Program-made: the position numbers and the translations under genes
In this document: positions 29,630-53,205 of the stretch, one piece after another
Position numbering within the stretch: position 1 is the stretch's first letter
Layout: each line of letters opens with the position of its first letter
Source of the DNA: Gaertneriomyces semiglobifer
Lineage: Eukaryota > Chytridiomycota > Chytridiomycetes > Spizellomycetales > Spizellomycetaceae
Direction: 5' to 3'
Length of the DNA: 64,000 nucleotides
Assembly (NCBI GenBank): GCA_025558075.1
Contig: JAHLKF010000035.1
Coordinates: 62,001 to 126,000 of the forward strand
The notes under the pieces: generated by a model
Told to the model about the DNA's origin: nothing
Database searches by the model: none
Seen by the model: only the letters and a program-made list of their open reading frames with translations

Positions 29630-29681
29630 TGTCACAGTGCAGACCGACATTGCATATGCAATGTCGGTCTGCACTGTGACA
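29630..29681. repeat. Perfect 52-bp terminal palindrome (left)
   Basis: 26 bp from TGTCACAG to TGCAT, followed by the exact reverse complement. It can fold into a loop-free hairpin. Identical to 53,154-53,205. Confidence 0.95.
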
Positions 29682-30033
29682 ATGGACATTGTTGAGTCAT
29701 ATGGACATTGCTGACTGACAATGGACATTGCTGGCTCAATCTGGACATTGCTGAAATCTGGACATTGTTGACCCATTCTGGACATTGTTGACACCGTAAC
29801 GCTTAATATCACCTAATAACAAGTGATGTCTACTTATAACACCAAGTGAAAACTGGGTTGAGTTAGAATATTTTTCTTATGTCAATCTTAACCCGCAAAA
29901 TCACCTACCATGTATTATCAAGCGCCCCCTTCCTGTTGACCTTCCAATCCCTCCATATTTCATCGAGTGCCGCGCCTATGAAACTTCCGCGTCCTGTCGC
30001 ACCTATCCATATCCTTATATATGCCTCGTCTTC

Positions 30034-30082
30034 ATCGATAAGTGTCTCAATCTGACATCACCCAAGTCAGACACTTATCGAT
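30034..30082. repeat. Hairpin with 14-bp stem in left terminal repeat
   Basis: ATCGATAAGTGTCT at 30,034-30,047 is complementary to 30,069-30,082, with a 21-nt loop. The mirror copy is at 52,753-52,801. ATCGATAA also occurs upstream of viral genes (34,292; 43,881; 43,901), so it may be a shared signal. Confidence 0.8.
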
Positions 30083-30274
30083 AAATCCTCAATGCTTCGC
30101 GAATATATCTTATGAACCTTATCGAATCAAACGCGCGCGTTCATTTCGTCGATAAACGGCCCTCGCCCATGGCGCTACGGGACTTGTATTTGTAGAGTTC
30201 ATTATATCTGTCTCCTTCCGTCAGCCGCTCCATATACTATTGCAACACCCCACATTTCATACTTTATCAAGTCG

Positions 30275-30429
30275 TGCACAGATGGCACAGATGCACAGAT
30301 GCACAGATGCCTTTCAGTCCGGAGAATACCATTTTCCAAAAAAAATTCATTCAACCCTCTGTGAACTTTTTTTTTTGAAATCCCGTCTCTTAAACCTAAA
30401 ATCATCTGTGCCATCTGTGCCATCTGTGC
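30275..30429. repeat. CACAGATG iteron block (left copy)
   Basis: Clusters of GCACAGATG on one side and CATCTGTGC on the other, around a core with an A-run and TTCACAGAGGGTTGAA. Same structure as 33,524-33,665 and 52,406-52,560. Confidence 0.85.
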
Positions 30430-30561
30430 TTCTACATTAATTTTACTACATACAATTTATATAATTACTACTACTTATCTACATATCCTCTACATAGCAC
30501 AGATGCCCGCACAGATGTGAATCATCTAAATTCATCTGTGCCTTTAAATCCTTATATATGA

Positions 30562-30774
30562 TTATTGCTTTTCTAACTTGTACACTCTTATTGGTTTGCG
30601 AGCACCAGGATATGTCTCCCCATTCAGATCTGCGAGACGCTTGACAGTGGCATGACACACACCGAGCATATCTTTCAACTGATTTAGCGACTTGGCACGG
30701 AACTCCTTTCGCAGGTCGGAGAACTCGTATACGGCAAGGTAGTTATGTGTTGGATGAGGCATTGACGGTTTCAA
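30562..30774 (-). CDS. Small HTH-like viral protein
   Basis: 70 codons. The segment LNQLKDMLGVCHATVKRLAD (residues ~30-49) looks like a helix-turn-helix, and the C-terminus is basic. It is divergent from the polymerase-helicase gene across a 155-bp AT-rich region with a TATA-like run (30,783-30,807). That position would suit a regulator of early transcription (inference). No family recognised. Confidence 0.5.
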   Translation of the reverse strand: MKPSMPHPTHNYLAVYEFSDLRKEFRAKSLNQLKDMLGVCHATVKRLADLNGETYPGARKPIRVYKLEKQ

Positions 30775-30782
30775 TGTATGTC

Positions 30783-30807
30783 AATATATATCTATATATA
30801 TATATAG
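30783..30807. promoter_or_regulatory. TATA-rich divergent promoter region
   Basis: A run of alternating TATATA between the divergent genes starting at 30,774 (-) and 30,930 (+). A second TATATATA lies at 30,904-30,911, about 20 bp before the helicase ATG. Promoter role is inferred from position only. Confidence 0.4.
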
Positions 30808-30929
30808 AGTGGGAATTTATATTGGTATTGTGGGGACGCACATTCGATGCTTTTGACGCAACCATCCGCGTAATGTAAAATTTCGATGCAAATGCGTTTC
30901 AACATATATATAAACCGATATTATTTTGT

Positions 30930-33353
30930 ATGTTCAAATATAGATACTCAAAACTTATCGAAATAATGACCTGCTCATTCTATGAAGATGAGTTCTTTCC
31001 GGTTGACAATGCGGATATGCCAACTATTCTTACAAAGATCGAGTTGTGCGACAAATCCAAACTCTGCCATCTCATCAAGAACAAGTATATGGATTCCAAA
31101 TGGAGAAAACTGTATAAAGCCTACTTAAAGAAATGTTGGGTCCAAGGGAATGAGTTCCGAGTAGAATATACATACTCGAAATATTCGTATGAAAATACTG
31201 GACGGCTGTTTTGTCGCAATGGGCTTGGACTTCAAGCCTTCCCTAGGGACGTCAGGGCGTACCTATGTGGAGAGTTTTACGATGATATTGACCAAGTAAA
31301 CAGTATGCCTGTTCTGTTGGCCCAAGTCTTTGAATCATACAATATCTCTGTACCCGAATTGGAGGAGTATGTTAATAATCGAAGTGCTTTCTTAGATAAA
31401 GAGCACCTTACTAAGAAAGATGTCCTTTCGCAACTGTTGACATCCTATAAACCACCCTCCAACTCTCTACTCAAAAAGATCCATGCCGACATTTATACCA
31501 AACTGGTCCCCATCCTACAAAAAGAAGGCTGGTCCGAGAAAGTCTGGACTCATTTGAATACAGTACGCCACAAAGTTATCAAAGGCAACCTTCCTGGGTG
31601 CTTTCTGAGCCTTGTGATGCAGACACATGAACATGAAACCCTTAACGAGATGTTCAACTTCTTTGAGTCCATGTACTTCTCTCCAGATGTGCCCGTGTTT
31701 GATGGAGGGCAGGTTCGAAAAGATCCCAGTCGAATTATTACTCAACATACACTTGATAAGTGTGAAGCGCAAGTACTAAATAATGCTGCGTTTTCTGTTA
31801 AACTTGCGATAAAACCCATGGAAGTATCGCCCGAATTCTATACAAAGTACCACATCAGTGAAGACGACCTGCTTGATGATGATGAACAAAATGTAGAGAA
31901 AGACTTGGATATGGACGAGTATGTCATGGATATTCCTGATGATGAGGAGTTCCATTTACAGAAACTACAAAGATTTTATAATGATGGGTACTGCCCAAAT
32001 CGAGCAGTGGCATATCTCAATAACTTTCTTGCCAAAATTACTCATGAGTCAACCGTATTTTATTGTTGGCGAGATTCACGTATGGAACCTTGGCTGCTTC
32101 GCGATAAGTCAACAACCAGAGGATCACTTAGCCATCGCTATCTCAAAAAGAAAGTTAAAACGGAGGACTCCAAGAAATGTAAATATGTTGATGTCCCAAT
32201 GTTTAACGTGTGGGATGAAAACCCCTTCATCCTCACTTTCAAACGCGTTGTTATGAATCCTACCTACACCGGCGACATCAATTTTAAAGAACTTAATCTT
32301 TTCCGTGGATTCAAAGCAAAGCGTCTGGCCAAGTACGATCCTCAGGTTATCGAACCTATTTTGCACCACATCAAGTACGTTATCAATTCTGATAATCAAG
32401 AGCATGCTGATTACACACTATCATGGTTGGCCCACATTGTCCAACATCCAGAAGAGAAGAATCGCACGGCACTTGTCCTCTACGGGAATCAAGGAACTGG
32501 AAAAAACATTCTCTTCGAGTTCTTTGGTGAAAAGATCATTGGCCGTGATCATTATCTGTACTTGAACAATCTAGAGGACCTTACAGGACAGTTCACTTCA
32601 TTGTCCGCTGCAAAAATCTTTGTTCTTGGTGATGAAATCTCATTCGCAGGGGGATATCGCACCAACAGCATCATCAAAAGCAAAGTCACACAATCATGGC
32701 AGAAACTTGAAAAGAAAGGTGTCGATCCTGTTATGATTGATGACTTTATGAACCTTTGTTTCTTATCGAACCATGATGATTGCATGCGTATCGAAGACAC
32801 TGATCGTAGATACTTTGTTAAAAGGACTTCAAGCAAACACCGGAATGATCACGAGTACTTCAATGCTCTTGCTGCACGATTGACACATGAGGCTGCGAAT
32901 CACTTCTATACCTATCTTATGGAGCGAGATCTATCTGCCTTCAATGTACGTGACATTCCTGAAACAGAGGAGAAACAAAGTATGAAAATATATGCAAAAG
33001 CGCCTTTAGAGTTGTTTGCAGATGATCTATTGAATGGACAGATCAAGATCAATTCAGTGGTTACTTTGTGTGCGGATTCAGAAGAGGAAGAAGAAGAAGA
33101 GGAAGGTGAGCATGGCCGTCAAAGTCTCTACTTTGAAAGAAACAAAACCTATGAAACCACGATCAATGTATTATTCAATCTTTATCGGGAGTACGTTGAT
33201 GCAGGATTTGCTGGACGCAAAGCAGGTGCTGACTTACCAAAAATTGCCTTCAGTAGAGCCATCAGAAAACATCTGAAAATCGAGAACAAGTCAGGTCACC
33301 GCCACAATGGAACCCCTATTCTGTTAACTGTGGCTTCCCCAACCGAGGTCTGA
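30930..33353 (+). CDS. TV-Pol-type DNA polymerase fused to SF3 helicase
   Basis: 807 residues; replication protein of the element. The N-terminal half carries the family A-related TV-Pol pattern: GRLFCRNGLGLQAFPR, then DDIDQVN (residues 118-124, motif A with acidic residues) and LEEYVNNRSAFLDK, with motif-C-like VFDGGQV at ~256-262. The C-terminal half is a superfamily 3 helicase: Walker A GNQGTGKN (~518-525), a Walker-B-like region ending VLGDE (~570) and a downstream segment LCFLSNHDDCMRIEDTDRRY that fits the sensor/Arg-finger area. An acidic loop (EEEEEEEGE) lies near 715. This fusion is known from Polinton-like viruses and certain virophages. It lies next to the left terminal repeat. No lesion seen. 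Confidence 0.88.
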   Translation: MFKYRYSKLIEIMTCSFYEDEFFPVDNADMPTILTKIELCDKSKLCHLIKNKYMDSKWRKLYKAYLKKCWVQGNEFRVEYTYSKYSYENTGRLFCRNGLGLQAFPRDVRAYLCGEFYDDIDQVNSMPVLLAQVFESYNISVPELEEYVNNRSAFLDKEHLTKKDVLSQLLTSYKPPSNSLLKKIHADIYTKLVPILQKEGWSEKVWTHLNTVRHKVIKGNLPGCFLSLVMQTHEHETLNEMFNFFESMYFSPDVPVFDGGQVRKDPSRIITQHTLDKCEAQVLNNAAFSVKLAIKPMEVSPEFYTKYHISEDDLLDDDEQNVEKDLDMDEYVMDIPDDEEFHLQKLQRFYNDGYCPNRAVAYLNNFLAKITHESTVFYCWRDSRMEPWLLRDKSTTRGSLSHRYLKKKVKTEDSKKCKYVDVPMFNVWDENPFILTFKRVVMNPTYTGDINFKELNLFRGFKAKRLAKYDPQVIEPILHHIKYVINSDNQEHADYTLSWLAHIVQHPEEKNRTALVLYGNQGTGKNILFEFFGEKIIGRDHYLYLNNLEDLTGQFTSLSAAKIFVLGDEISFAGGYRTNSIIKSKVTQSWQKLEKKGVDPVMIDDFMNLCFLSNHDDCMRIEDTDRRYFVKRTSSKHRNDHEYFNALAARLTHEAANHFYTYLMERDLSAFNVRDIPETEEKQSMKIYAKAPLELFADDLLNGQIKINSVVTLCADSEEEEEEEEGEHGRQSLYFERNKTYETTINVLFNLYREYVDAGFAGRKAGADLPKIAFSRAIRKHLKIENKSGHRHNGTPILLTVASPTEV

Positions 33354-33404
33354 ATATGGTGCTAAGTTACTCGAGATATGGAGCATATTGAACAATGAAA
33401 TATA

Positions 33405-33665
33405 GTCCCATCATCTGTGCCTAGTTAAGTAGATCATCTGTGCGGGGATCTGTGCATGGAGAGGGTATGTAGATAATTGTCAGTAATTGTAATAATTAAT
33501 GAAGAGAAATTAATGTAGAAGCACAGATGGCACAGATGGCACAGATGATTTTGGATTCTTGCAATCGCTTTTCAAAAAAAAAAGTTCACAGAGGGTTGAA
33601 TCAACTTTTTTCTGAAAACGGTTTTCTACGGACAGAAAGGCATCTGTGCATCTGTGCATCTGTGC
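33405..33665. repeat. Internal copy of the terminal CACAGATG block
   Basis: A diverged direct copy of right-repeat sequence around 52,311-52,560. It has three GCACAGATG-type repeats (33,524-33,547), an A-run, TTCACAGAGGGTTGAA, and an inverted CATCTGTGC cluster (33,640-33,665). It fills the gap between the helicase gene and the zinc-ribbon gene. Confidence 0.85.
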
Positions 33666-33749
33666 GCCGCTCCACGATATCAACAATTGAATCGTTCTTC
33701 GTCACTTTCCGAGTCAGGTAGCAGGACAAAGTCTTTGACTTCGCGGCGT

Positions 33750-33899
33750 TTAATTCCAGCATTCGAGGCAATACGGTCTAGATCTTAATTTTGGAATAAT
33801 CGCTCCGCAATCCTTGCATGTTGTGCAGCGATCTGGAATAATTAGATTGCCTTGTTTATCGCGTTGGAGTTGATAAACCGGGAATGTTTCTTTGGCCAT
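33750..33899 (-). CDS. Small zinc-ribbon protein
   Basis: 49 residues from ATG 33,899 (MAKETFPVYQ); a longer form from 33,959 would add a hydrophobic leader and seems less likely. Cysteine pairs CTTCKDC and CLEC make a plausible zinc ribbon, with CX2CX2C followed after about 14 residues by CX2C. Such small ribbons occur in viral transcription factors and nucleases; the role here is unknown. Confidence 0.5.
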   Translation of the reverse strand: MAKETFPVYQLQRDKQGNLIIPDRCTTCKDCGAIIPKLRSRPYCLECWN

Positions 33900-34005
33900 G
33901 TTGTATTTCTTTAAATAGGAAACGAGGGAATAAAGTAGGACTGCGGTTGGAATGAACATATAACTTTGCGGCCAATGTTTAAATAGGATTTTTGATATTT
34001 GGTAA

Positions 34006-34275
34006 ATGTTGCGATTCAGTGAAGAATATTATGATACACCTAGAGAATGTGTTCAAGTGTCGTGTTTAGAATTGTTCGAGTCGTTAAAGCCAGAATTTCA
34101 GGAACAGTTCGTGAAAGATCTTGAAGAGATGAATACTGATGATGTTGTTGACACCGGAACATTCAAAGTTCTGAAATGGTCGCTTCTATTCAGTAAACTG
34201 AGTTTGAAGTACAAAGATCATGTCAAAGTTGAAGAAGCACCAAAGAAAAGAAAGCGCAAAGCACCCAGCATCTAG
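34006..34275 (+). CDS. Small hypothetical viral protein with nuclear-localisation-like tail
   Basis: 89 residues. The acidic, helical body ends in PKKRKRKAP, which resembles a monopartite nuclear localisation signal. This suits an element replicating in or targeting the nucleus (inference). ATCGATAA lies 17 bp after the stop. No family recognised. Confidence 0.55.
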   Translation: MLRFSEEYYDTPRECVQVSCLELFESLKPEFQEQFVKDLEEMNTDDVVDTGTFKVLKWSLLFSKLSLKYKDHVKVEEAPKKRKRKAPSI

Positions 34276-34548
34276 GGCGCTTAAATAAAATGTTAATCGA
34301 TAAGGATTTCTATGACGTATGAATGTACGTCACAGAAAACCTGTGGAGCCTGCTTATTAGTCGGAAGTGCTCATGGCCTGTTGCTTGTTTGTTTTATGGG
34401 TCGGCTTAAACGTAGTAACAAAAACATGCCGGAGTCACAAATCTATTCAATGAAGGTGCCATCACACAAGACGTTGGCTGCTCCTTGGGAGAGGGCCCAA
34501 TCTCTCCCAATCATATGTTCTGAAAAAAAGATTTGTCCTAAACGCAAT

Positions 34549-35763
34549 CTATACATCAGCAACGACTCCACCAATGCTCAGCGTAACATTCTCGTAGTAG
34601 TTCACAAGTAAACGAACCGACTCGGGAAGAGGATCCTTGTGAATAGTGGCAATTTTAAGTGACGAATTTGTTCCTTCAAATGACAAACCAGCGCTTGAAG
34701 ACTTGGTGCGGTCCTGGAACGACCAGCCAAAGGAGAATTGCTTCTTGTCATAATCAGCAAATGAGATATCCATATCGCCGAGACTGTCAAAATCAGTCTG
34801 CGATAACAGACTGGCGAGCAATGTCTGATTGTCGGTTGGTGAATGCGTGAAGCCGGCTTTCCCGCTGGGAATTGCGGTCATACCAAGAACAAGACGCCAC
34901 TCCCTGAGATCCCAAGAGGAATAGTTCAAAGCAGCATCCTTTGTAGTATCAGCATTTGCGTCAACAAACATTGCATCAAATCCCTGCAAGGATCGCACTC
35001 CAGACATATTCAGATTAAAAATATTCTTTTCAGTGCCAGAAGCCGGCAGAAGAGCCTGGGTTGTTCTCGTATATTCATAGGAGATCCCTGCCGGGATTGG
35101 TCGCTCCGCGCCCGGCATGGCTCGAGTTGCATTAACGAACTGAGGGCTCGGAGTATGATAAGGCATCAAGAGCCTAATGTTCCTGACACGGATTTCGTCC
35201 ACATTCGCACTTGGGAATACGGAGGCTGGGTCTGCAAGGACGATGGTGAACTCCAGTGCCTGGTTCGGGAGTGCAAACACGTGAAAGAAACTTTTATTCT
35301 GAGGATTACAAAAACCAACCCATGGATGCATGTTCATGGAGACAGTTGCTCGAGTGTCGAATATATTATCGTTTGAATAACCGCTAAGTTGTCTCAACAA
35401 TTTCTTATGTCCGGCCGGCATGTTCTTATAAACAGAGTTAAGATACGCCGGGAAGGACTCAATTTTTTCGACTATCTCCCCTCCGGCTACAATAGTCAAA
35501 GACTGAATGATGCTTTCCAGACCGAGATAAGTATTCTTAACATCGGCACCAGGAGTAATAGCGGTTCCGTTATTATATGCGGAAACATCCATGGAAAGGA
35601 CCATTCTTGTAAGGTCAAATGATGTTGTGCAGGAATCACATACAATACGGATGGGAGTCGAACTGCGGTCCTTTGAAGAATATTCGGCTTGATCGGTAGG
35701 AGAGAAGAAATGTATACCTTTTCCCAAAGGGTCACCAAATTGCCGAGCAGGAATTTCAGACAT
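34549..35763 (-). CDS. Capsid protein A, double-jelly-roll type (paralogue of 37,993 gene)
   Basis: 404 residues, beta-strand-rich, no signal peptide. It shares a block pattern with the 415-residue protein at 37,993: FALPNQALEFTIVLADP here versus LLPNQAVELTLTLNTP there, then a V-R-I-L strand and TPSPQFV versus TPSAEFL. Later both have F(D/S)..KQF/KRF with a strand and a SLKIAT/NLKLIT segment. Length and architecture fit the double-jelly-roll major capsid protein of the Polinton-like lineage, which forms the trimeric capsomer. Which paralogue is the major one cannot be told. It is followed on the same strand by the packaging ATPase, with about 60 bp between them. Confidence 0.72.
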   Translation of the reverse strand: MSEIPARQFGDPLGKGIHFFSPTDQAEYSSKDRSSTPIRIVCDSCTTSFDLTRMVLSMDVSAYNNGTAITPGADVKNTYLGLESIIQSLTIVAGGEIVEKIESFPAYLNSVYKNMPAGHKKLLRQLSGYSNDNIFDTRATVSMNMHPWVGFCNPQNKSFFHVFALPNQALEFTIVLADPASVFPSANVDEIRVRNIRLLMPYHTPSPQFVNATRAMPGAERPIPAGISYEYTRTTQALLPASGTEKNIFNLNMSGVRSLQGFDAMFVDANADTTKDAALNYSSWDLREWRLVLGMTAIPSGKAGFTHSPTDNQTLLASLLSQTDFDSLGDMDISFADYDKKQFSFGWSFQDRTKSSSAGLSFEGTNSSLKIATIHKDPLPESVRLLVNYYENVTLSIGGVVADV

Positions 35764-35826
35764 GGAACGTTTCGTTTGATAATAGAAAACGAGGTAATTT
35801 ATTAGTGCTGCGTTTAAGGCCCATGC

Positions 35827-36561
35827 TTATTCTGTGCTCGGTTTTCCCTCGGTGAACACGTCCTCATTCTTTGGTGTCTTTAGATCAATGTAGAGGAATG
35901 AATAAGGTTCTTTCGTTGCTCGATCTGCCACATCGATAAACTCGCGTTCAGTAAGGTGACATCTCAGTTCAGGTGCGATCTTTTCATATTGTTTCATATT
36001 CAGTCGATAAAGAATGACGTGTGTGTTATTAACACGCTGCAATGGCGTCATTTGCAAAGTCTCATGAAAGGAGCACATTAATGAAATGCCGCTGTGTCTC
36101 GCTCGAGAGTAAAGAGTGTCAAGCATCTCTTTGATACCGCTGGATATTTCTTCATGTTTCTTGAGTTCCTTCTTCGGATCATTCCCGGTCTGTCGAGCGA
36201 GTATTCCGTAGTCGTCGATAACAATAAGAATGTGCTGCCGTGTCTTATCTCTTTTGTAGAGTTCTCTTTGTTTCTCAAACAAGGCGTTGAGGACATGGTT
36301 GGAGACTAAATGAGAAATGTATACATTGTTCTTTCGCTTAAGGCTGCTCCATATGGGATCTTCAATAGAGGGAGTAAATATACACACGGCTGAATATGCT
36401 GGAGCGAGTTTCTCGATAAGGTTTACTTGACATGTTGTTTTACCGGATCGTGAAGAGCCGACAATGGAGAGAACAAAGAACTTTCTGGGAAATCCGGGCG
36501 GTGTCTTATCGATGAGTTTGACCTCGTTTTCTTTGGGGATCTTTACCTTGTGAATGTACAT
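35827..36561 (-). CDS. A32/FtsK-HerA-type genome-packaging ATPase
   Basis: 244 residues. Walker A GSSRSGKT (35-42) and Walker B ILIVIDD (111-117) are in the expected strands, followed by an arginine-rich SRARHSG segment (~152-158) and SLMCSFH. In the Polinton/virophage/poxvirus lineage this ATPase pumps DNA into preformed capsids. It lies upstream of capsid protein A on the minus strand, divergent from the penton-like gene, making a compact virion-assembly module. No lesion. Confidence 0.9.
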   Translation of the reverse strand: MYIHKVKIPKENEVKLIDKTPPGFPRKFFVLSIVGSSRSGKTTCQVNLIEKLAPAYSAVCIFTPSIEDPIWSSLKRKNNVYISHLVSNHVLNALFEKQRELYKRDKTRQHILIVIDDYGILARQTGNDPKKELKKHEEISSGIKEMLDTLYSRARHSGISLMCSFHETLQMTPLQRVNNTHVILYRLNMKQYEKIAPELRCHLTEREFIDVADRATKEPYSFLYIDLKTPKNEDVFTEGKPSTE

Positions 36562-36614
36562 AGCGGATTAATTTCTTCTTAATAGTATAACAAGCAACAT
36601 ATTTTGTCGTCTAT

Positions 36615-37364
36615 ATGTATAGAGAATATATTCTGAATACGGCCATAGTCGGGGACTCGAGCAATGCTACATTCTATATCTCTCCTCCTCAGAGCATCTA
36701 TGCATTCCGTGTGATCTCGGTGAATTTCATTCAATCGTGGGACATGATGAATAGTACTAACAATACCATCCTCTTTGCAGAGATGGGCGATACCACTCCA
36801 CGAAAAGCCACAATCGCACCAGGACACTACAATGCCTTTAACATTGGTGGAGCAGTAGCAACTGCAATGTCGAATGCAGGTGGACAGACGTACACCTGCA
36901 CCTATGACGAGCGAACTCGACGGTTGAGGATTGAAACGACGGGAAGTAAAGAATTCAAACTGATTGAAGGTGCACGAGGTAGCACTGCATACTTGCAACT
37001 CGGAATGAGTAAATCGAGCGAAAGCGGTTACGCATTACCGGGCTTTACTCTGCCTGCTCCATTAAATCTATCTGCAAGTCAACCGATTCTTCTCACTAGC
37101 AGAACTCTGCAAACGTCAAATGGGATCACATACGTTGCAGGAATCAACAGTGATATGAACGTTCTTGCGTGTATCACACCGGACTCCTTTAATGATGTAG
37201 TGTCCTGGGTAAACCCGAGTGACAAAATGTTCCAGACGGGAGAAATCAGCATGAGTTCTATTGATATTCAACTATTTGACAGCCAAACGATGCAACAAAT
37301 CAAGACAACGGCTCCAATCGTTGTTGTTCTTGGTGTTTATGATGATCCTGCAGACCTCTTTTGA
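36615..37364 (+). CDS. Penton-like minor capsid protein
   Basis: 249 residues. The N-terminal half shows the pattern of virophage/Polinton minor capsid (penton) proteins: Y.ISPPQSIYAFRVISVNF opening strands, PGHYNAFNIGGAV, then YDERTRRLRIETTGS. The C-terminal half is a single jelly-roll-like run of strands. Pentons fill the five-fold vertices. It is divergent from the ATPase, with a 53-bp gap holding the start regions of both. Confidence 0.75.
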   Translation: MYREYILNTAIVGDSSNATFYISPPQSIYAFRVISVNFIQSWDMMNSTNNTILFAEMGDTTPRKATIAPGHYNAFNIGGAVATAMSNAGGQTYTCTYDERTRRLRIETTGSKEFKLIEGARGSTAYLQLGMSKSSESGYALPGFTLPAPLNLSASQPILLTSRTLQTSNGITYVAGINSDMNVLACITPDSFNDVVSWVNPSDKMFQTGEISMSSIDIQLFDSQTMQQIKTTAPIVVVLGVYDDPADLF

Positions 37365-37405
37365 AGTTTTTTTTTCTTGATAGTGTTCAAGAAATCAACG
37401 ATAAA

Positions 37406-37933
37406 ATGGATGAAGAACAGCAAAAATCGATCGCCGCAGCCCATCCCGAGGTTGAAGCAAGCCCTGCACAGGATGCAGTACACGAAAATGTACAGGATCA
37501 CGCGGAGGATGCTCCAAAGCCAAAGGTGAAGAGGCAGATGACTGAAAAGCAAAAGGCGGCACTCAACGCCGCTCGAGAGAAACGCACAGCGAGATTGAGA
37601 GAAATGTCCAAGCAGAAGGCTGAAGAGGATGAGAAAAAACGGCTTGAGGAGGCCAAGAGACTGCTTGAAGAGGAAAAGGCAAAGAAGAAGGCCGCGAGAT
37701 TAGCAAAGGCAGCAGCAAAAAACCCAGTTAAGGAAACTAAACTAAAGGAACCAACACCTAAGAAGAAGCCAGTAAAAGCAAAGGCGCCAGTTGAACCTGA
37801 AGAGGAACATTCACCTCCCAATATAAAGATTCAGCCAACAAATCCAATTGCGTCAAGATTATACGATCAACAGGCCGAGGTCGCATTCAATAATCCTTAT
37901 GATGTTATATTTGGGAATACATACAGAAGGTAA
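37406..37933 (+). CDS. Lys/Glu-rich coiled-coil virion or DNA-condensing protein
   Basis: 175 residues from ATG 37,406. A longer frame from a TTG is unlikely. Residues ~45-110 are an almost unbroken charged helix (alternating Lys/Arg and Glu with Ala), then a Lys/Pro-rich stretch. A conserved-looking tail ends with NPYDVIFGNTYRR. Its composition suggests a core or scaffold protein binding DNA or other virion proteins. It sits between the penton-like and capsid B genes on the same strand. Confidence 0.55.
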   Translation: MDEEQQKSIAAAHPEVEASPAQDAVHENVQDHAEDAPKPKVKRQMTEKQKAALNAAREKRTARLREMSKQKAEEDEKKRLEEAKRLLEEEKAKKKAARLAKAAAKNPVKETKLKEPTPKKKPVKAKAPVEPEEEHSPPNIKIQPTNPIASRLYDQQAEVAFNNPYDVIFGNTYRR

Positions 37934-37992
37934 AAGACATTCGGTGCTTTGAATATTTTTTTAGTTGACATCTTGTAAGAAAACCCTTCAAG

Positions 37993-39240
37993 ATGTCAAT
38001 TAACAATCAAACTTCCGGTTCCACATATCCTGTCGTCCCCCAAAATTGGATCTATGCATCTCGCCAATTTGAGATGAACAGTGATGCATTAAGTGAAAAC
38101 ATAATGATATATAGAGGAATCAAGGACAGCCACGACTCTCGTGCCTCAGGATCTCCAATCAAGGTGGTGATTGACTCTCCAAGTTCTTTTCTAAGGCCGC
38201 AAAGAACCTACATGTCGTGTAGGATCACCCACTATAATGCCGACGGTACTCCAAACACAAATATCACAGCATCAGAAATTGGATTAATGTCTCATTTCAA
38301 GACCGCCACACTGCGTGTCTCAGGGAAAATTGCTGAGGAGTACTCGGACTATCCGGAGCATGTTGGACAGCAATATACGTATGAAACGGCCGCGAGACGC
38401 AAGTATTTGCGATTGCTCGAAGGGGCTGGAAATGCCAACGCTATTAAGAATGATGATGGCTCTGCCGTTGTCAGACATCACCTTCGTTTTGGACTTTTGA
38501 ACAACATTAATGGGAACCCTTTGCCCCTTTGTTTGCTTCCGAACCAAGCCGTGGAACTGACGCTTACATTGAATACTCCACAGCAAGCAGTTACCAATGC
38601 GCCAGCGGGTGGCTATTTCATTGTCGATGATTTCCGAATAGTTGCCCAGTTAGTGACCCCCAGCGCAGAGTTCTTATCGAGTGCTTGGGCAGGTATTCGA
38701 AACGGCAAGTACCTCGAGTTGGACTACGTAGCCGGAGTGCAAACGGTAAACAACTGCTCCGGAGCATCGCAAAACAATTTCATTATTCCATTGAGCAATT
38801 CTCGAGTAGTAGGGCTGATGCATCGCTTCAGAAAGAATGATGCTTATACGGCTACAACAGGGGACAAGTCGTTGATTTACGACAAAGCCAATTTGGTTTC
38901 TTGGAGATACCAGTTGGGCCAATGGCGTCTTCCATTGACAGAAGATTTCAAGGTAGAGGATGCTCTTATCAACGGTGCTTTATCGATGTCGGATTCAGAA
39001 AACTACGAAGCGGAGGATGTTGACTTTGATAACTTTGACTCGAAGCGGTTCACCATCCGTCACAACTTCCAATCGATTGATGAAGGAATGTCGAGCGCTT
39101 TAAATCTGACAGGGTCAGATGGAAACCTCAAATTGATTACTACACATTCAAGCCCACCTCCACCTACAAGTACAGTTCTTCTTACCACCGTGTTTGTTCA
39201 CAGGACACTCTTGATTGGAAATACTATTGACACGGTCTGA
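37993..39240 (+). CDS. Capsid protein B, double-jelly-roll type
   Basis: 415 residues, no signal peptide, strand-rich; paralogue of the 34,549-35,763 gene (shared blocks listed there). Features include SSFLRPQRTYMSCRITHY near the first sheet, the LLPNQAVELTLTL strand (~175-188), WRYQLGQWRLPL (~310-321) matching WDLREWRLVLG in paralogue A, and a C-terminal strand pair after a PPPPT turn. It probably forms capsomers with or instead of paralogue A. Two capsid paralogues in one element is unusual. Confidence 0.72.
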   Translation: MSINNQTSGSTYPVVPQNWIYASRQFEMNSDALSENIMIYRGIKDSHDSRASGSPIKVVIDSPSSFLRPQRTYMSCRITHYNADGTPNTNITASEIGLMSHFKTATLRVSGKIAEEYSDYPEHVGQQYTYETAARRKYLRLLEGAGNANAIKNDDGSAVVRHHLRFGLLNNINGNPLPLCLLPNQAVELTLTLNTPQQAVTNAPAGGYFIVDDFRIVAQLVTPSAEFLSSAWAGIRNGKYLELDYVAGVQTVNNCSGASQNNFIIPLSNSRVVGLMHRFRKNDAYTATTGDKSLIYDKANLVSWRYQLGQWRLPLTEDFKVEDALINGALSMSDSENYEAEDVDFDNFDSKRFTIRHNFQSIDEGMSSALNLTGSDGNLKLITTHSSPPPPTSTVLLTTVFVHRTLLIGNTIDTV

Positions 39241-39499: not shown

Positions 39500-39541
39500 T
39501 CTATGATATACGGGTATTATCTACTTATAAGCAACACTATT

Positions 39542-41020
39542 TTATTTCTTTCTGATGTAACCTTTGTTGCTACGAGCATCTGGTGGCCGATAATCCACAT
39601 CCTTCCTCTTTCGTGTGCTTCGTCTCAAAGCAGGAGGATTTGCAACAACTGGTGTCGACACCAGCCCCGAGCCTGGGGCAGGCGGGACTAGGGGTGTGGA
39701 TGCAGTATGAAGCGGTGTTCCAAAAGCCGGCATTTGTGGAGCCGTACTTACCGGACCAGGGATCGAAGCCCTTGGAGTTGGAGTATCAGGAGAGATATTG
39801 ATCGGCGAATGCGAAAACGCACCTGGCATAGTAACTCGCGGATTCAGCATTCCTCTTCGGGCTGCAACTGATGTGGGAAGGATTCGCCTTGGAGAAATAC
39901 CGGGACTCGAACCGGGAGAAGATGATGCAGAGGAAGATGAAGATGAGGAAGCCGAAAAAGGTGAACCTCCGCCACCCCCTGGAGGCCTCCACCAACCCAT
40001 GTTGGGATCATGTGTGGGAATGAACGGTGCATTCAAAAGTTGCATTCGCGTTCGGGCTTCGTGGTCGTCTTCAACAACACGCTTACTCCATGGGCCTGTC
40101 GATGGGGCTCGAAGCAGATGGGTTCGGGTGTATAACTCTTCATCGCTGTTTTCCTTAGGAACCTTGGGCCAACTGATTTTCTTGCTATCTGGTTGCTTCG
40201 GAGGATCATATTTAGTTGGTGATGGATATTTGATATCGACGTCCATTGGCTCTAATTTGTACTCTGCGGGTTCCGCCTTCACGTCAATGTCCATAGGACT
40301 ACCACTCTTGGGACTTGTTCTAAAGTCTTTTGTGACTGAATCCGATGGGAACTGAATGGGAGAGGTTGCATGAGACTGGAACTCTATCTTGTTAGTACTT
40401 CCGATCCGACCCACTTCAGTAGATGTTTGTGTTCCAGAATTGGTGAGATTCACCGTGTGATTCTGTCCTAGAATGACATTCTTCTCCTTTGCATTGGCAA
40501 CCGCTGGAGACCTTGGGTCCGTTGCGACCTCGACTTTCTTTGTAGTGTCGCCGAGGGTTTGATTTTGTTGCGCTCGCATCCATCCTGGTTGGTGGTATGC
40601 AGAAGTTGTCCCATCATCATTAACTTGAACAGCAACACTTCTGGGCAGAGCAATATGTTGACCTCATCTGGGGAACAAATTACCTTCATCTAATGAGTCA
40701 AAGTATGCTTGTCTTGACTTCTCTTTCTCGACAGCAAGAAATGCAGCAACTGCATCTTTTTCGACTTTGCTTACATAGTCCGCTTCTCTGAAGCGAGCGT
40801 TACCATTTGGAGGGAACTTCAAGTCGGTGGTAACACTTAATACCTCGCCTTTAGGAACAAAGAAGTGATCACGGAATTCTCGATTGAAAGTATTCTCAGG
40901 ACCTGGCTTCCCATCGATAAACCCATATTGTCGTGCTTGGATGTTGGGAATAGGACGGTCCGGAAAGCCAGTCGGGTTCCATGTCGGCAGTCTTAGATTT
41001 TCATTGTAGACAGCACTCAT
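39542..41020 (-). pseudogene. Disordered virion-associated protein with one in-frame TGA
   Basis: A 493-codon frame from ATG 41,020 to 39,542, interrupted only by TGA at 40,664-40,666 (codon 119). The N-terminal 118 residues look folded (RLPTWNPTGFPDRP, DHFFVPKGEVLSV). After the stop the frame continues with GQHIALPRSVAVQV and a long Ser/Pro/Gly-rich tail that ends in a basic segment (RRSTRKRKDVDYRPP). Asp-rich PMDIDVK/PMDVDIK repeats lie in the middle. It is divergent from the 41,067 gene. The function is unknown; the place within the virion module suggests a structural role. CGA (Arg) to TGA is the simplest origin of the stop. Confidence 0.6.
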
Positions 41021-41066: not shown

Positions 41067-41369
41067 ATGGCCAATTTTTTCCAAAGAGTGAAGGGCAAAG
41101 CCAACACCTTTTTCAAGAATGCACCAGCCAATATAACAAAAGCAAGAAATTTCTTTTCAGGAGCAGTCAAAACCGCTGGAAAGGCGAATCGCTTCATTCA
41201 ACATGTAAACAAGGGTGTGCAAGAGAATGACGTTTTTGGAGCCAAAGTCAAAGACGTTGGAAAGCAAGTGTCAGACTTTTCTGACATCGGTTTGAAAAGG
41301 ATCCAGGATGTTCATGAGAAAGGAAGTAAATTTGCCGATCATGTTGCTCGATTTGATCCAAACGCATAA
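41067..41369 (+). CDS. Small basic amphipathic-helix viral protein
   Basis: 100 residues. Repeated helical segments with alternating Lys and Phe/Val (MANFFQRVKGKANTFFKNA, then FFSGAVKTAGKANRFI) give amphipathic, membrane-active-looking helices. This recalls small minor capsid proteins of adeno-like viruses by composition only. It is 37 bp upstream of the integrase ATG. Confidence 0.5.
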   Translation: MANFFQRVKGKANTFFKNAPANITKARNFFSGAVKTAGKANRFIQHVNKGVQENDVFGAKVKDVGKQVSDFSDIGLKRIQDVHEKGSKFADHVARFDPNA

Positions 41370-41406: not shown

Positions 41407-42648
41407 ATGGCAGACATATTTCAGTGAAGAAATTACTTCAAACCGATCTCTGAAGAGGATGAACGGAACTTGAAATCAATGTTCTATTCCGACATGGCTT
41501 TCATGGGACGAGATCGTCTATGGCATTTATTCAAGAGCCGATACCCTGATAGCAAGATATCGCAAAGGGCCGTGCTAGATTGGTTAAAAAAACAGGAAAT
41601 CCATCAAAAGATGACTAGGCCTATCGTATCAAAGGGAGGAATAAAACCGATTCTGAGTTCAAAACCAGGTTCACTGCAGATTGATACGATCAATATGAGT
41701 TCTGTTTCATATAACGGCTACAGTTATATCATTAATTGTATTGATATTCTGACTAAGCGACTATATTCTCGAGCGATTCGGGCGAACACTCAACAAAACA
41801 TTCGTAATTTTCTTCAATCGCTCGTAGATGATGGAGTGCAAATAAGATCGATCCAAAGTGACAACGGTGTCGAGTTCCAAGGGATAGTTCAGGAATTTGC
41901 AAGATCGAGGGATATCCCTTGGCGTTTCAGCAAGGCGGGTTCACCGCAAACAAACGCGCTGGTAGAACGCATGAACGCAACACAAAAGAAAATGATCTAT
42001 TCCTCGATAAAACTTGGAGACCGTAATTGGGTAGAGAGTCTGCCCAAGATTGTCAATAATATTAATTCGGCGGTAAGTTTTGGAAGTGGTAAGAAACTGT
42101 TAACTCCTGATCAAATTGAACGCAATGTAGAAGAAAGTTATCGAGCGCAGGTTACTCTGAGGACAAAAGGGCGAGGAGTAAAAGTGCTTCCACCATTCAA
42201 AATTGGGGATAAGGTGCGGCTGCTTATACAAGAGAACACAGACATTAGACGACCATCGAAAACAGGATATTTTGGCGATGAAATTCATACGATCGAGGGA
42301 GTTGTTCCGAACCCACACCCGAATTATATGGATGCGTACAAGTTGGAAGGTAAGTCTGGGTTATACGCGGCGTATCGTTTACGTCTCGTCCCCCCAGGTA
42401 CTGTCATCACACCAGCAAATGCTACGGTTGATGACGATGACAGCGATGAAGAACCTGGAAGCGAAGGGGATTACGAGGTCGAAACAATATTGGATAAGCG
42501 CACTCGACGTCGACGAAGAGGTCAATCTCAAGTAACAGAGTATCTTGTTCTATGGAGAGGATATGATCGTAGTGAAGCGACATGGGAGCCGGTGTCGAAC
42601 TTACAAAACGCTAGGGAAGCCATATATGCGTTTGAAAACACCCACTAG
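41407..42648 (+). pseudogene. Retroviral-type DDE integrase with C-terminal chromodomain; TGA at codon 7
   Basis: The frame starts at ATG 41,407, meets TGA at 41,425-41,427 (MADIFQ-stop-RNYFKP) and continues 407 codons to 42,648. Without read-through, translation might restart at ATG 41,479. The catalytic triad is Asp93 (LQIDTI), Asp152 (IQSDNGVEF) and Glu187 (LVERMN), which is the D,D35E spacing. An N-terminal zinc-finger-like HHCC motif is not visible. The C-terminus has an acidic linker (DDDDSDEEP) and a chromodomain (YEVETILDKR to YLVLWRGYDRSEATWEPVSN). Polinton-group integrases of this design insert the element and may target chromatin. Confidence 0.88.
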
Positions 42649-42782: not shown

Positions 42783-43832
42783 ATGTCAGCCGAAGCAGGA
42801 AGGAAGCGGAAGTTCTGCGAGTATTCATTGGAGGAAATTGCTCAAATCAAGAAATTACAACCCAACCATAACATTGTTAAGACTTTAAAGAACCAACTGT
42901 TAGTGGAAGGTATCGACGAGATCATTGGTGATCCTCACCTTCTTATTGAGTTTTACCGTAAGCCTTTGAAACACCTGAATGAGAATTCCTTCGGCAATTA
43001 TGTGGGCTACATGGCCACATTCTTAAAGCAATGCAACGAGAAAGGTGAACTCGATCAGGAGATGGATAAAGTCATTGAAGTACTGCAAAAGGAAGCAAAG
43101 GAACTACGGGCTCCTGCTGCCGAAAAACGTACTAAAGGAGAACCTAGTGAGCGTGAATTGAAACGAGGCGTCACAGGTTTCCAATTCCCAACCATCCTTT
43201 CAGCAGTTGAACGGAATTATGAACATGTCGTCAAGGGCTTGTTCTTGAAATCAGAGATCCACAGGCTTCAAAAGCAAGAGTACATTGAACTCCTCCGCGG
43301 CGTCATTCTGTGTGCATGTACTATGATGCCAAACATCCGCTCCATGTGGACTCGAGTAAAAATGTCGCCATTCAACACTGACACGGAGGATGGCATTCTC
43401 TTCTCGAACAAACGTGCGATTCTGATGTTCAATAGTAACCGAAAACGACAACATGATCCTTATATTCAAGATATCAAGGATCCCAAATTATTCCAGATCC
43501 TAGTAAAATGGAAGAGGTTCCTAAATCGTCAATTTCCAAATGGGACCACGTACTTCTTTGTGGACTATGATGGCAATCAGATGACACCTAAAAAGTTCAC
43601 AGGATACATTCAAGAGTGTTGCAACAAGTTGGTACAAAAGAAACTTGGTATATCGGATTTGCGACGTATGCAGATTACCGATTTAATCAACAAGCATGGC
43701 AATAATCCGCCATCCATCAATGCAATTTACAAGGATTTCCACCATACTCGTGCGGAATTTGACAAGTATTATAAGACAAACAATGTTGACGTAGAACCGG
43801 TAGATGATTCCTTCTTTGATGTGGACGAGTAG
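42783..43832 (+). CDS. Tyrosine-recombinase-like protein
   Basis: 349 residues. The N-terminal ~120 residues are helical and basic. The C-terminal half shows a degenerate tyrosine-recombinase layout: Arg in MPNIRSMWTRVK (~184-195), LRRMQITDL (~299-307) in the place of the second Arg box, HHTRAEFDKYY (~322-332) with candidate His and nucleophilic Tyr. The order R, R, H, Y matches the family (Crypton/virus-type); the exact catalytic residues need alignment. Having both this and a DDE integrase is unusual. A domesticated, non-catalytic DNA-binding role is possible. Confidence 0.55.
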   Translation: MSAEAGRKRKFCEYSLEEIAQIKKLQPNHNIVKTLKNQLLVEGIDEIIGDPHLLIEFYRKPLKHLNENSFGNYVGYMATFLKQCNEKGELDQEMDKVIEVLQKEAKELRAPAAEKRTKGEPSERELKRGVTGFQFPTILSAVERNYEHVVKGLFLKSEIHRLQKQEYIELLRGVILCACTMMPNIRSMWTRVKMSPFNTDTEDGILFSNKRAILMFNSNRKRQHDPYIQDIKDPKLFQILVKWKRFLNRQFPNGTTYFFVDYDGNQMTPKKFTGYIQECCNKLVQKKLGISDLRRMQITDLINKHGNNPPSINAIYKDFHHTRAEFDKYYKTNNVDVEPVDDSFFDVDE

Positions 43833-44302: not shown

Positions 44303-44389
44303 CGATATTTATTGTTCGACGCGTGTTTGTGAATAGCGTCGCTCCACCTGTCGCCAGAAATCGTATATAAAGAACTCGTATATGCACGG

Positions 44390-44625
44390 ATGTACTACCG
44401 CTGCCAGCGGGTGCTTGCTGTTGGGAGTAGCAAGCGTCGCGAACTACCGGAGGCAGCACGTAGATGTACTACCGCTGGAAGCAAGAGGTGTTGCTGTCGG
44501 GAGCAGCACACGTCCCGAACTACCGGAGTCAGTACAGTAGATGTACTACCGCTGGAAGCAACAGGTGTTGCTGTCAGGAGTAGCACAAGAACATCCCAAC
44601 ACCGGCAGGGCAGCACTTCGACTCA
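44390..44625 (+). repeat. Tandem ~78-bp repeat, three imperfect units
   Basis: Each unit starts TACTACCGCTG and contains GTGTTGCTGT and GGAGTAGCAC-like words. It lies in the non-coding gap before the PCNA-motif protein. The same ACTACCAGCGGCAGCA vocabulary reappears as the 24-bp coding repeats at 44,925-45,050, so the two arrays are probably related. Confidence 0.75.
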
Positions 44626-44781
44626 TCGAAGGATAAGTACGGTATTGTGCGATGGGGGGCGAAAGGTCAAGGGGGGTGCTTTTATATGCGAGACGGTTAT
44701 GTCAAAGGACGTAGCCACAGGCTATTTTTAGAGTTCTTGCCTTGCTATTTAAAGAGCAAAAGACCTCCTTTTACAGGAAAG

Positions 44782-46149
44782 ATGAAAGAACTTGAAGGGC
44801 CTCCGCTGCTCCTTCATGAAAGGGAAAAGAATTCAAACTCCAGTACTTTAAAAGGCCAATGCTTTGCCGCCATCTCCACCTCTTGACTCTATCTGAAGTG
44901 CTGTGACATTAGCATCCCGAGCATCAACTACCAGTTGCAGCATTTGCTCAAACTACCAGCGGCAGCATTTGCTCAACTACCAGCGGCAGCATTTGCTCAA
45001 CTACCAGCGGCAGCATTTGCTCAACTACCAGCGGCAGCATTTGCTCACCTACCAATGGAAACGGCAGTTGCGCCCACTGAGAACAATGAAGGACTACCAG
45101 TGGCAGTACAAGGACCAAGTGTTGCACCCACGAATGAAGAAGGTGAAGAAGATGAAGAGAGTGATCTTGAAATCACTGAAGGAAATGATCCACCATCAGA
45201 GGACAGTGGTGATCCCGTCAATGTTACCCCATGGGACGCGGCGTGGGTTACTGAAGCATTAGAAAAATCTAAAAAGACACTTGTCGATCCATCGGATGTG
45301 GAGAATGCTCGTAATATGTTACTGGGGCTTGTGGATTACTATAACAAGGCCAACCTGCCAAGTTCCTGGGAACTTGTACAATGTTTCATACGCATTGCAA
45401 AAGCCAAGTTGACAGCGAGCCCTTCGATAGTCGAACAAGTGCAAGAATATTTGGAAGGGCCTATCCCAAACGTTGCGCCTGGTAAAATCAGTGATCGTCA
45501 CATTCAGAGAGCATTGAAGGCAAAAAATGAAAAGGATATTGTACGCGAACTGGAGAAGATCAAGGTGGACAATGATATAGATGCTATGCATCGAGCCATA
45601 TGTTATTACCATGCAGGCTTAGTTTGGGAAAAGTTGCCAAAGAGCCAAAAAGAAGCATTGAATTCGGCGGCGACAAACAAAATGAACAAATCAGCAAAGT
45701 CATTGAACAACATTCGACAACGAGCAGCAAGAATGTTCCGGTGTGTGAACAAAATCGGACATGGGATCCTTTTTCACAAAGCCCTCCGGAGTGATAATTT
45801 CATCAAGAGGATCACAAAGGAAATGTATCCTCAGATTCAGAAAATAATGGAAAACGACTCGTATTGCCAATGGCCCAGGGCCGATATGTACAAGGATTAT
45901 GTGCAGAAGATTCTGGAAGGTACTCCGCATGATCGAGATAACGGTACTCCAAGTGACAACTTGAATAGTTCATCCCACAAGAGGGCAATGGAGGATGGAC
46001 CAGCCATCAGAAAGCCCCAGAAAAAGGTTAAGGGCAAGGAGCCTGTGCAGGGGAAGGAGCCTGGGCAGGATAATGGGCCTGGGCAGAGGTCCGTAGCATC
46101 CTACTTTCAATCACAAGCAAGACGTTCAACGATGTCGGTCGAAGAATAA
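44782..46149 (+). pseudogene. Viral protein with QLPAAAFA repeats and C-terminal PCNA-binding motif; TGA at codon 35
   Basis: A continuous frame of 456 codons from ATG 44,782 with a single TGA at 44,884-44,886. Without read-through the first usable ATG is 45,055. After the stop come about four to five 8-residue repeats (QLPAAAFA) encoded by a 24-bp tandem repeat. Then an acidic segment, a helical domain of about 230 residues with no recognised family, and a Lys/Gly/Pro-rich linker. Near the C-terminus, residues 435-442 read QRSVASYF, a consensus PIP box for binding the sliding clamp PCNA. That suggests a replication- or repair-linked role in the nucleus (inference). Confidence 0.6.
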
Positions 46150-46161
46150 CTATAGAAATGG

Positions 46162-46848
46162 TCAGCCGCAATACTCTTCAACAATCTTGTAAATCTCGTT
46201 GAATTGGTAGCCTTGGTCTTTTGAAATGAAATCGTTCATTCCGCTTTCGAGTGCACGTTCCTTGTACTGTTTCTGGGTGTAACCTGAAACACCAATGATA
46301 GGAATAGGTCTTGAACCCTTTTCTATTTCGTATGCTCAAATCTCTCGTGCAACTGTCAGACCGTCTTTAATAGGGATTTCGATATCCAAGAAGATGATGG
46401 AGAACATTCTCGCTTTGAACATTTCGATGGCCTCTTGGCCGTTTGAGGCGACGAACACGTTGTGACCCTTTTTCTGCCACCATTTTTTGAAGATTTCCTG
46501 AAGAATCTTCGAGTCCTCCACTAGAAGAATGTTCAATATCTTACCTTCAAGTGTTTTCAACGGAGTGTTGCGTTGTTGGTCGGTCGGTGGATCGTCATAA
46601 GGCAGTTGCGTCTCAGAGTCGCCAGGCGACTCTTTCTTCAATCTGTCATATATATCAGTCAAGGTCTCAATGACGTTGAGAAGATCGTTCAGAATGTCTT
46701 TATCGATACGGGGTTGTTCTGGTTCTTTGGCACTATAAAGTACATATTGCTCTAGAGCGGCCAAGCGTTTTTCAAGTTCTAGACGTTTGCGCTCGGAGAC
46801 CTCGTAGCGATTCTTGTAAATGTTGTCCAAATTCCTTCTCGCCTCCAT
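46162..46848 (-). pseudogene. Two-component receiver-domain protein with one in-frame TGA
   Basis: A 229-codon frame from ATG 46,848 to the stop at 46,162; TGA at 46,336-46,338 (codon 171) lies inside the domain. The N-terminal coiled coil (~1-40) and a second helix (~50-73) precede a complete receiver domain. It has the acidic pair E111/D112 (LLVEDS), phospho-acceptor D155 (IIFLDIEIP), S188 (GVSGY) and K210 (ISKD). The D-S-K spacings of 33 and 22 match CheY-like receivers. Such domains accept phosphate from histidine kinases, which fungi possess. It was probably captured from a host hybrid kinase. The stop would remove the last two catalytic positions unless it is read through. Confidence 0.82.
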
Positions 46849-46914
46849 TGAAGCGTCCCAAATAAAAAAATATAACTTGCTTATGTAAAGAGGAGAGCCT
46901 TTACATAGACAATA

Positions 46915-52230: not shown

Positions 52231-52405
52231 GCCAGGATGCGTGACTCGATAAACGCGTGTGAAAGTGTGATTAGAATGTGTTATGTAGTGTCGGCACAGA
52301 TGAATTTAGATGATTCACATCTGTGCGGGCATCTGTGCTATGTAGAGGATATGTAGATAAGTAGTAGTAATTATATAAATTGTATGTAGTAAAATTAATG
52401 TAGAA

Positions 52406-52560
52406 GCACAGATGGCACAGATGGCACAGATGATTTTAGGTTTAAGAGACGGGATTTCAAAAAAAAAAGTTCACAGAGGGTTGAATGAATTTTTTTTGGA
52501 AAATGGTATTCTCCGGACTGAAAGGCATCTGTGCATCTGTGCATCTGTGCCATCTGTGCA
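52406..52560. repeat. CACAGATG iteron block (right copy)
   Basis: GCACAGATG x3 at 52,406-52,432, an A-run with TTCACAGAGGGTTGAA, then an inverted cluster of CATCTGTGC to 52,560. Mirror of 30,275-30,429. Confidence 0.85.
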
Positions 52561-52752
52561 CGACTTGATAAAGTATGAAATGTGGGGTGTTGCAATAGTA
52601 TATGGAGCGGCTGACGGAAGGAGACAGATATAATGAACTCTACAAATACAAGTCCCGTAGCGCCATGGGCGAGGGCCGTTTATCGACGAAATGAACGCGC
52701 GCGTTTGATTCGATAAGGTTCATAAGATATATTCGCGAAGCATTGAGGATTT

Positions 52753-52801
52753 ATCGATAAGTGTCTGACTTGGGTGATGTCAGATTGAGACACTTATCGA
52801 T
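52753..52801. repeat. Hairpin with 14-bp stem in right terminal repeat
   Basis: Mirror of 30,034-30,082. Confidence 0.8.
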
Positions 52802-53153
52802 GAAGACGAGGCATATATAAGGATATGGATAGGTGCGACAGGACGCGGAAGTTTCATAGGCGCGGCACTCGATGAAATATGGAGGGATTGGAAGGTCAAC
52901 AGGAAGGGGGCGCTTGATAATACATGGTAGGTGATTTTGCGGGTTAAGATTGACATAAGAAAAATATTCTAACTCAACCCAGTTTTCACTTGGTGTTATA
53001 AGTAGACATCACTTGTTATTAGGTGATATTAAGCGTTACGGTGTCAACAATGTCCAGAATGGGTCAACAATGTCCAGATTTCAGCAATGTCCAGATTGAG
53101 CCAGCAATGTCCATTGTCAGTCAGCAATGTCCATATGACTCAACAATGTCCAT

Positions 53154-53205
53154 TGTCACAGTGCAGACCGACATTGCATATGCAATGTCGGTCTGCACTG
53201 TGACA
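53154..53205. repeat. Perfect 52-bp terminal palindrome (right)
   Basis: Identical to 29,630-29,681. It forms the last 52 bp of the element before ACGAT. Confidence 0.95.

Follow-up and report, generated by a model that had tools for sequence, protein, structure and literature searches.

The locus described here raises two questions: whether a complete-looking small DNA virus lies integrated in the genome of a fungus, and where the modules of such a virus came from. We analysed a 64,000-nt window of contig JAHLKF010000035.1 (C35) of Gaertneriomyces semiglobifer, and coordinates are positions in this window unless another contig is named. A sequence-only reading had placed in it, at 29630-53205 between 913-bp inverted repeats, a Polinton-like virus (PLV) in a fungal-type genome. 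The span proved exact and the two repeats identical (913/913), and the host is indeed a fungus (Chytridiomycota, Spizellomycetales), the CAP gene in the window being confirmed as a host gene. The ends, the target duplication, the capsid fold and the packaging ATPase all support an integrated PLV. Here we argue that the element is very probably an endogenous PLV of a spizellomycetalean chytrid, with mosaic ancestry.

With 23,576 bp and terminal inverted repeats (TIRs) of 913 bp, the element falls within the size class of PLVs (14-40 kb with TIRs). Its outermost bases are TGTCACAG...CTGTGACA, and its GC content is 0.435 as compared to 0.496 for window positions 1-27000. A perfect inverted repeat of 2,856 bp surrounds it (27687-30542 and 52293-55148). 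The whole of this repeat was ruled out as the TIR, since about 1.2 kb of its outer 1,943 bp occurs virus-free on C7, C11, C43, C47, C4 and C21. At these virus-free copies the flank repeat continues through the insertion point, and the empty site reads uninterrupted as GATGTATCGT CGTGCC in all six. The left junction in the window reads GATGTATCGT/TGTCAC, and the original right junction, CTGTGACA/ATCGTCGTGCC, is present inverted, at 27657 and leftward; the true right flank has thus been displaced. Comparison with the six empty sites, which lie at paralogous places, gave a target duplication of 5 bp, ATCGT. On the right side there is now 1,943 bp of left-flank sequence in inverted orientation, the outermost 743 bp of which have no close copy elsewhere in the genome. 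On the simplest reading, the DNA would have broken at the terminal palindrome, and repair would have used the opposite inverted repeat as template and run on outward into the left flank. Tandem repeats of 138 bp are present in the flank (27661-28074 and 54757-55170), where the inverted duplication starts and stops. On C21 (208585-255938), a single copy of the repeat that bears the window insertion holds two PLVs of different lineages, separated by 136 bp, and this repeat may be an insertion hotspot.

Profile searches bore out the SF3 helicase and the packaging ATPase named by the sequence-only reading, and its giant fibre was recovered as a 1771-aa protein with a coiled coil and discoidin domains (Table 1). 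An RVE integrase and TIRs, features of Polintons/Mavericks in the strict sense, are both present. No PolB was found among the scanned open reading frames (ORFs) of the element, and there was no PF03175 match on C35. The model of major capsid protein A (MCP-A) predicts a double jelly roll, whose best fold matches are capsids of nucleocytoplasmic large DNA viruses (NCLDV; Z 28.1, against 18.8 for Sputnik and 17.0 for mavirus), a ranking of folds that does not decide membership. The predicted penton is supported by a fold match as well, less strongly than the capsid. In the tyrosine-recombinase-like protein the R, K, R, H and Y residues are kept in 7/7 sequences, with Ser replacing the first His; the protein gave no notable match in Pfam, PHROG or NCBIfam, and its best PDB match, an integrase, was weak (E 0.14).

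The core genes are open in the window element. As compared to the sister copy on C19, dN/dS was 0.08 for MCP-A, 0.06 for the ATPase, 0.06 for the penton and 0.02 for the 100-aa protein, indicating clear purifying selection. The second major capsid protein, MCP-B (0.42), is under weak purifying selection; its copies have a TAG inside in C19, C30, C34, C39 and C47, and those of C2 and C59 are broken. For the integrase the value was 0.18, one column containing a stop. Because the C19 frames shift, we made no use of the results for the tyrosine-recombinase-like protein, with a dN/dS of 0.46 and three stop columns, or for the proline-rich protein, which had eight stop columns and returned no value.

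Judged from sequence comparison, the element is a mosaic, with a second capsid nested in another resident lineage and a replication cassette shared with that lineage. We divided the PLVs of this genome into four lineages by identity to MCP-A: I (83-100%), II (60-61%), III (50-52%) and IV (21-32%, a range that includes fragments and in which the element's own MCP-B also falls). MCP-B shows 27% identity with MCP-A and 77% identity with lineage IV capsids. In a tree restricted to this capsid family, it was nested among the five lineage IV capsids read, as sister to C24:12k (support 99/97). The replication protein shares 93% identity with C6:690454-692865, its other matches being pieces of 30-55%, and the capsid of that C6 element belongs to lineage IV, with 69% identity to MCP-B. 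The sister copies have an ATPase 98% identical to that of the element, and a genome search found in them no match to its replication protein; the C19 copy, the one read in this respect, has instead a Prim-Pol-DUF5906 protein (E 3.6e-26). Homology to C6 starts at 30278, and homology to C19 ends at 30193 and restarts at 33695. The left edge of the cassette was read against C6, and its probable right edge is given by the repeat. The window holds 29 CACAGATG motifs against 3.1 expected, and we read these repeats as a putative origin travelling with its initiator. Since the cassette edge lies in both TIRs, the TIRs would have been re-equalised after the swap. MCP-A too appears to have a separate history, because its dS against the C19 sister (1.29) is far above that of the seven other valued genes (0.12-0.30). 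New here is that capsid and replication modules are shared between lineages resident in one genome.

Table 1. Features of the integrated element and its flanks (window coordinates; aa, amino acids).
Feature	Position	Strand	Remarks
Whole integrated element	29630..53205		23,576 bp, 5'-TG...CA-3' ends
Left terminal inverted repeat	29630..30542	+	913 bp
Right terminal inverted repeat	52293..53205	-	913 bp
Left terminal perfect palindrome	29630..29681		52 bp
Right terminal perfect palindrome	53154..53205		52 bp
Six iteron-like GGACATTG repeats	29684..29787	+	mirrored at 53048-53151
Left flank, non-viral	27687..29629	+	inner ~1.2 kb is a repeat occurring elsewhere without virus
Inverted copy of left flank, non-viral	53206..55148	-	1,943 bp identical
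Rearrangement scar	27657..27688	+	half terminal palindrome fused to original right target flank, inverted
Replication cassette	30278..33665	+	lies between imperfect inverted repeats (~210 bp) and between CACAGATG repeats; sister copies lack it
Replication protein, 807 aa	30930..33353	+	SF3 helicase (DUF5906) by profile; N-terminal half read as TV-Pol, unconfirmed
MCP-B, second major capsid protein	34549..35763	-	nests within another lineage's capsids
A32-like genome-packaging ATPase	35827..36561	-	profile match, Pox_A32
Penton (minor capsid) protein	36615..37364	+	fold match
Lysine-rich protein, no assigned function	37406..37933	+	ORF; start codon not settled
MCP-A, double-jelly-roll major capsid protein	37993..39240	+	predicted fold
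Proline/serine-rich protein	39542..40579	-	ORF
118-aa protein	40664..41020	-	conserved in sister copy, dN/dS 0.14
100-aa protein	41067..41369	+	strongly conserved in sister copy, dN/dS 0.02
RVE (retroviral-type) integrase, C-terminal chromodomain	41479..42648	+	profile; D69, D128, E163
Tyrosine-recombinase-like protein	42783..43832	+	motifs R186, K221, R294, H320/H321, Y329; Ser291 in usual His place
364-aa protein	45055..46149	+	ORF
Response-regulator receiver domain	46336..46848	-	covers first 64 of 111 profile positions only
Fibre-like protein, 1771 aa	46915..52230	+	coiled coil and F5/8 type C (discoidin) domains

The terminal palindromes extend to 54 bp if one chance base per side is counted, and they are the only palindromes with arms of at least 10 in window positions 200-63800. 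A neighbouring lineage IV element on C6 starts with a different perfect palindrome of 56 bp, the outer nine bases being the same. The pattern TGTCACAGT-N28-50-ACTGTGACA was found at 40 genome sites of 46-66 bp, and a reversed control gave none. Within 18 kb of a PLV locus lie 29 of the 40, in zones that make up at most 5.3% of the genome, and 25 of the 31 PLV loci have a pattern site nearby. Seven equal-length palindrome pairs, 23.0-26.8 kb apart, each enclose a PLV core gene; two of the seven share a middle site on C31, and the pair read in sequence is that of the window. Five more pairs at 15-30 kb differ in palindrome length, and one of these five encloses no PLV gene. Cores were read at 15 sites and were perfect at 12 (palindromes of 52 and 56 bp), near-perfect at two and non-palindromic at one; the site C6:638591 fits the pattern and is not palindromic (6/16 core pairs). 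A protein-primed polymerase was absent from all seven pairs, though 14 PF03175 matches occur elsewhere in the genome. The same pattern search in IMG/VR yielded 15 contigs. Their cores were all imperfect, with 3 to 12 of 14 to 25 pairs matching, and at E 1e-3 no contig encoded one of the nine query proteins. These matches were not accepted as relatives; we took them as chance, and as a fair control for chance. On the DNA reading, perfect 52-bp terminal palindromes with shared outer bases, and with varying cores at 40 sites, are new here. In a decayed PLV on C6 (L043:3131-3377), GGACATTG repeats of 19 bp form a long array beside its repeat end, an expanded form of the iteron-like repeats in the window.

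The genome gave 34 matches to the ATPase and 39 to MCP-A. Merging matches within 11 kb, we counted about 31 PLV loci, of which 27 have both ATPase and MCP and 4 just the ATPase. Taking about 24 kb per locus, we estimate that they make up at most some 3-4% of the 20.9-Mb genome, several loci being truncated. About 31 PLV loci in one fungal genome are new here. Named relatives of the capsid and penton came from Gaertneriomyces sp. JEL0708, G. semiglobifer and Phlyctochytrium arcticum, and no Spizellomyces protein was among the 11 protein hits. In the capsid tree, the C7 capsid was at zero distance from the named G. semiglobifer protein.

Seven sister copies extend to contig ends, and the terminal letters are the same in 6/7 of these contigs. 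A stretch of 14,790 bp is identical in five of them (L025/L026, L027/L028, L029/L030, L031/L032, L033/L034), which stop at the same base inside a PLV, though their flanks differ by about 2% or more. As the contig ends are identical while the flanks differ, these are probably collapsed repeat ends in the assembly. The sister-copy flanks are alike over 3.7 kb (97.1-99.97% among six, 94-98% with C19). Seven fresh insertions were rejected as the likeliest origin of the seven copies; copying together with the flank is likelier, given the similar flanks, the collapsed contig ends and a gene for a long protein-primed-type DNA polymerase B (pPolB) about 7 kb off on all seven contigs. The term 'subtelomeric' was dropped for these flanks, as the C19, C2 and C59 stretches have no triple TTAGGG run and the flank holds the pPolB gene. 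This gene belongs to a second repeat family (14 PF03175 matches), present on C47, C30, C19, C39, C34, C59, C2, C1, C10, C52, C45 and C38 and including L037:1776-4772. Because it lies so near to the sister PLVs, the PLV may spread inside another mobile element.

Could the element be something other than a PLV? It might be a large DNA transposon of viral descent, moved within the genome by its integrase and forming no particles. The intact integrase and TIRs suit such a transposon, as do the relaxed look of MCP-B and the TAG-bearing or broken MCP-B of the seven sister copies. However, the capsids of an intragenomic transposon should decay, whereas MCP-A, penton and ATPase keep dN/dS values of 0.06-0.08, and relatives are not confined to this genome, since other chytrids have them, as do records from further sources (lgn, ena, jgi). 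We consider a transposon unlikely. Even less probable is a fragment or relative of an NCLDV, which the top fold matches of the capsid model and the Pox_A32 match of the ATPase might suggest. PLV and NCLDV capsids have the same fold, so the fold match does not discriminate between them; the complete ends at 23.6 kb, TIRs, RVE integrase and SF3 replication protein speak against an NCLDV, and no NCLDV polymerase or transcription genes were found among the element ORFs scanned. Contamination or an assembly artefact, for which the sister copies running to contig ends with signs of collapsed repeats could be cited, is hardly credible, as the element is internal to C35 on the same contig as host genes such as CAP, has a target duplication with empty sites at paralogous places, and matches named proteins of G. 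semiglobifer and Gaertneriomyces sp. JEL0708. Some results do weigh against identification as a virus. The sequence-only reading had held that its case would fail if capsid and penton profiles gave no hit and structure prediction showed no jelly rolls; Pfam, PHROGs and NCBIfam indeed gave no profile match for either protein, but jelly rolls are predicted. Its TV-Pol/SF3 replication protein and two recombinase types stood in part, profiles confirming the SF3 helicase and the RVE-chromo integrase but neither TV-Pol nor the tyrosine recombinase, the latter being recognised by motifs only. Moreover, protein scans of IMG/VR found no relative, and the C19 sister used for dN/dS lies at a contig end identical in several contigs and may be a collapsed consensus.

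As for the terminal palindromes, we put the chances at about even that they act as hairpin telomeres replacing protein-primed replication. They may instead be just binding sites of the integrase or recombinase, or attachment sites of the tyrosine recombinase, a possibility that we hold somewhat doubtful yet substantial. The outer nine bases TGTCACAGT are common to sites with differing cores, as would be expected of an integrase end. On the other hand, an integrase site does not need a perfect mirror of 26-28 bp, the 15 IMG/VR pattern matches lack a perfect core, and the three distinct perfect palindromes keep the halves of their differing cores complementary, so that pairing itself appears to be selected. 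Several points count against the telomere reading. The search pattern itself makes the outer nine bases pair, and the core is therefore the real test; the 12 perfect cores represent only three distinct sequences, one of them in 10 copies; and 11/40 pattern sites lie farther than 18 kb from any counted PLV locus, one of these (C43) being a PLV copy missed by the locus count. A further proposal, that fungal PLVs are a lineage with closed hairpin telomeres, resolved in some elements by the recombinase-like protein and integrated by the RVE integrase, seems quite improbable. A match to the recombinase-like protein was detected inside just one of the seven equal-length pairs, which counts against closed hairpins with a resolvase, and a resolvase role is thus a lead only.

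Taking the element as an endogenous PLV, its history may have run as follows. The element's lineage would have acquired a second capsid gene from lineage IV, a distant PLV lineage resident in this genome, with which it would also have exchanged the replication cassette. In the active element, the SF3 helicase protein would replicate the DNA from the CACAGATG repeats that move with its gene, and the terminal palindromes, as hairpin telomeres, could solve end replication without a protein-primed polymerase. The A32-like ATPase would package the DNA into a capsid of double-jelly-roll hexamers and pentons, and the long fibre with discoidin-type domains may serve in attachment. Linear viral DNA with TG/CA ends would have been inserted with a 5-bp duplication, and these ends and the duplication point to the element's own RVE-chromo integrase as the inserter. 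Once the element was in place, a template switch at its terminal palindrome may have copied 1.94 kb of left flank, inverted, to the right side.

The sequence-only reading had held an element this complete in a fungal-type genome to be noteworthy. Family size, mosaic structure and palindromes are new, but the kind is already known, since a 2021 paper described an integrated PLV from another chytrid, Spizellomyces punctatus (PMC7805220). The S. punctatus PLV, from a chytrid of the same order, has the core MCP, minor capsid protein and ATPase as here. In contrast, one element was reported there as compared to about 31 loci here, and 52% of its group carry a chitinase, which was not found among the element ORFs scanned. 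The same paper names a Polinton in the fungus G. intraradices in which no capsid was found. A 2023 PLV survey excluded Fungi (PMC10120064); a fungal PLV appears in PMC7805220 but not in the available text of PMC10120064, PMC11071308, PMC12220804, PMC12721341, PMC8547959, PMC13236599 or PMC3558466, subscription papers and preprints being mostly outside this scope. PLV expansions in oomycetes, cryptophytes and chrysophytes resemble the present one in having many elements per genome, TIRs, short target duplications, TVpol-SF3 or primase-SF3 replicases and gene replacement (PMC10120064, PMC12220804).

Multi-capsid PLVs, gene-module exchange and integrated virophages with two integrases are already published. 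More than one major capsid gene, as here, is also found in Trimcap PLVs, which have three (PMC7805220), and in hybrids that combine virophage and PLV capsids (PMC12220804); unlike in them, the second capsid here nests in a lineage still resident in the same genome. Some Cafeteria EMALEs likewise carry RVE and tyrosine recombinase and show module exchange between lineages, but they are virophage-type elements (PMC8547959). Palindromes of similar size are found in the hairpin telomeres of phage N15 (site of 56 bp) and Borrelia and in those proposed for phaeoviruses (PMC13236599), a paper that reports turning sense-antisense reads for Ectocarpus elements. The telomere resolvases TelA and ResT have Tyr for the catalytic His (PMC3558466), where the window protein has Ser. 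Unlike in these replicons, the palindrome here is at both ends of an integrated copy and the resolvase is putative. The terms 'palindrom' and 'hairpin' are absent from the available main text of five papers, among them PMC10120064, PMC12220804 and PMC8547959.

The window also holds a probable long terminal repeat retrotransposon at 16403-21774, with RVT_2 and a gag with a Ty3-capsid-like match; end repeats of about 277 bp are suggested by matches to other copies. The PLV copy on C43 is inserted in a relative of this retrotransposon. Upstream of the 364-aa ORF, 44415-45070 is repetitive, with tandem repeats of 24 bp and imperfect ones of 45-51 bp.

A complete-looking small DNA virus in the genome of a soil chytrid offers a rare view of fungal DNA viruses. 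With some 30 PLV loci, purifying selection on capsids, empty sites and a recent-looking insertion, it provides a testable case in a culturable soil chytrid. The terminal palindromes would offer a checkable answer to how PLVs lacking a protein-primed polymerase replicate their ends, and the mosaic indicates that capsid and replication modules move between lineages living in one genome.
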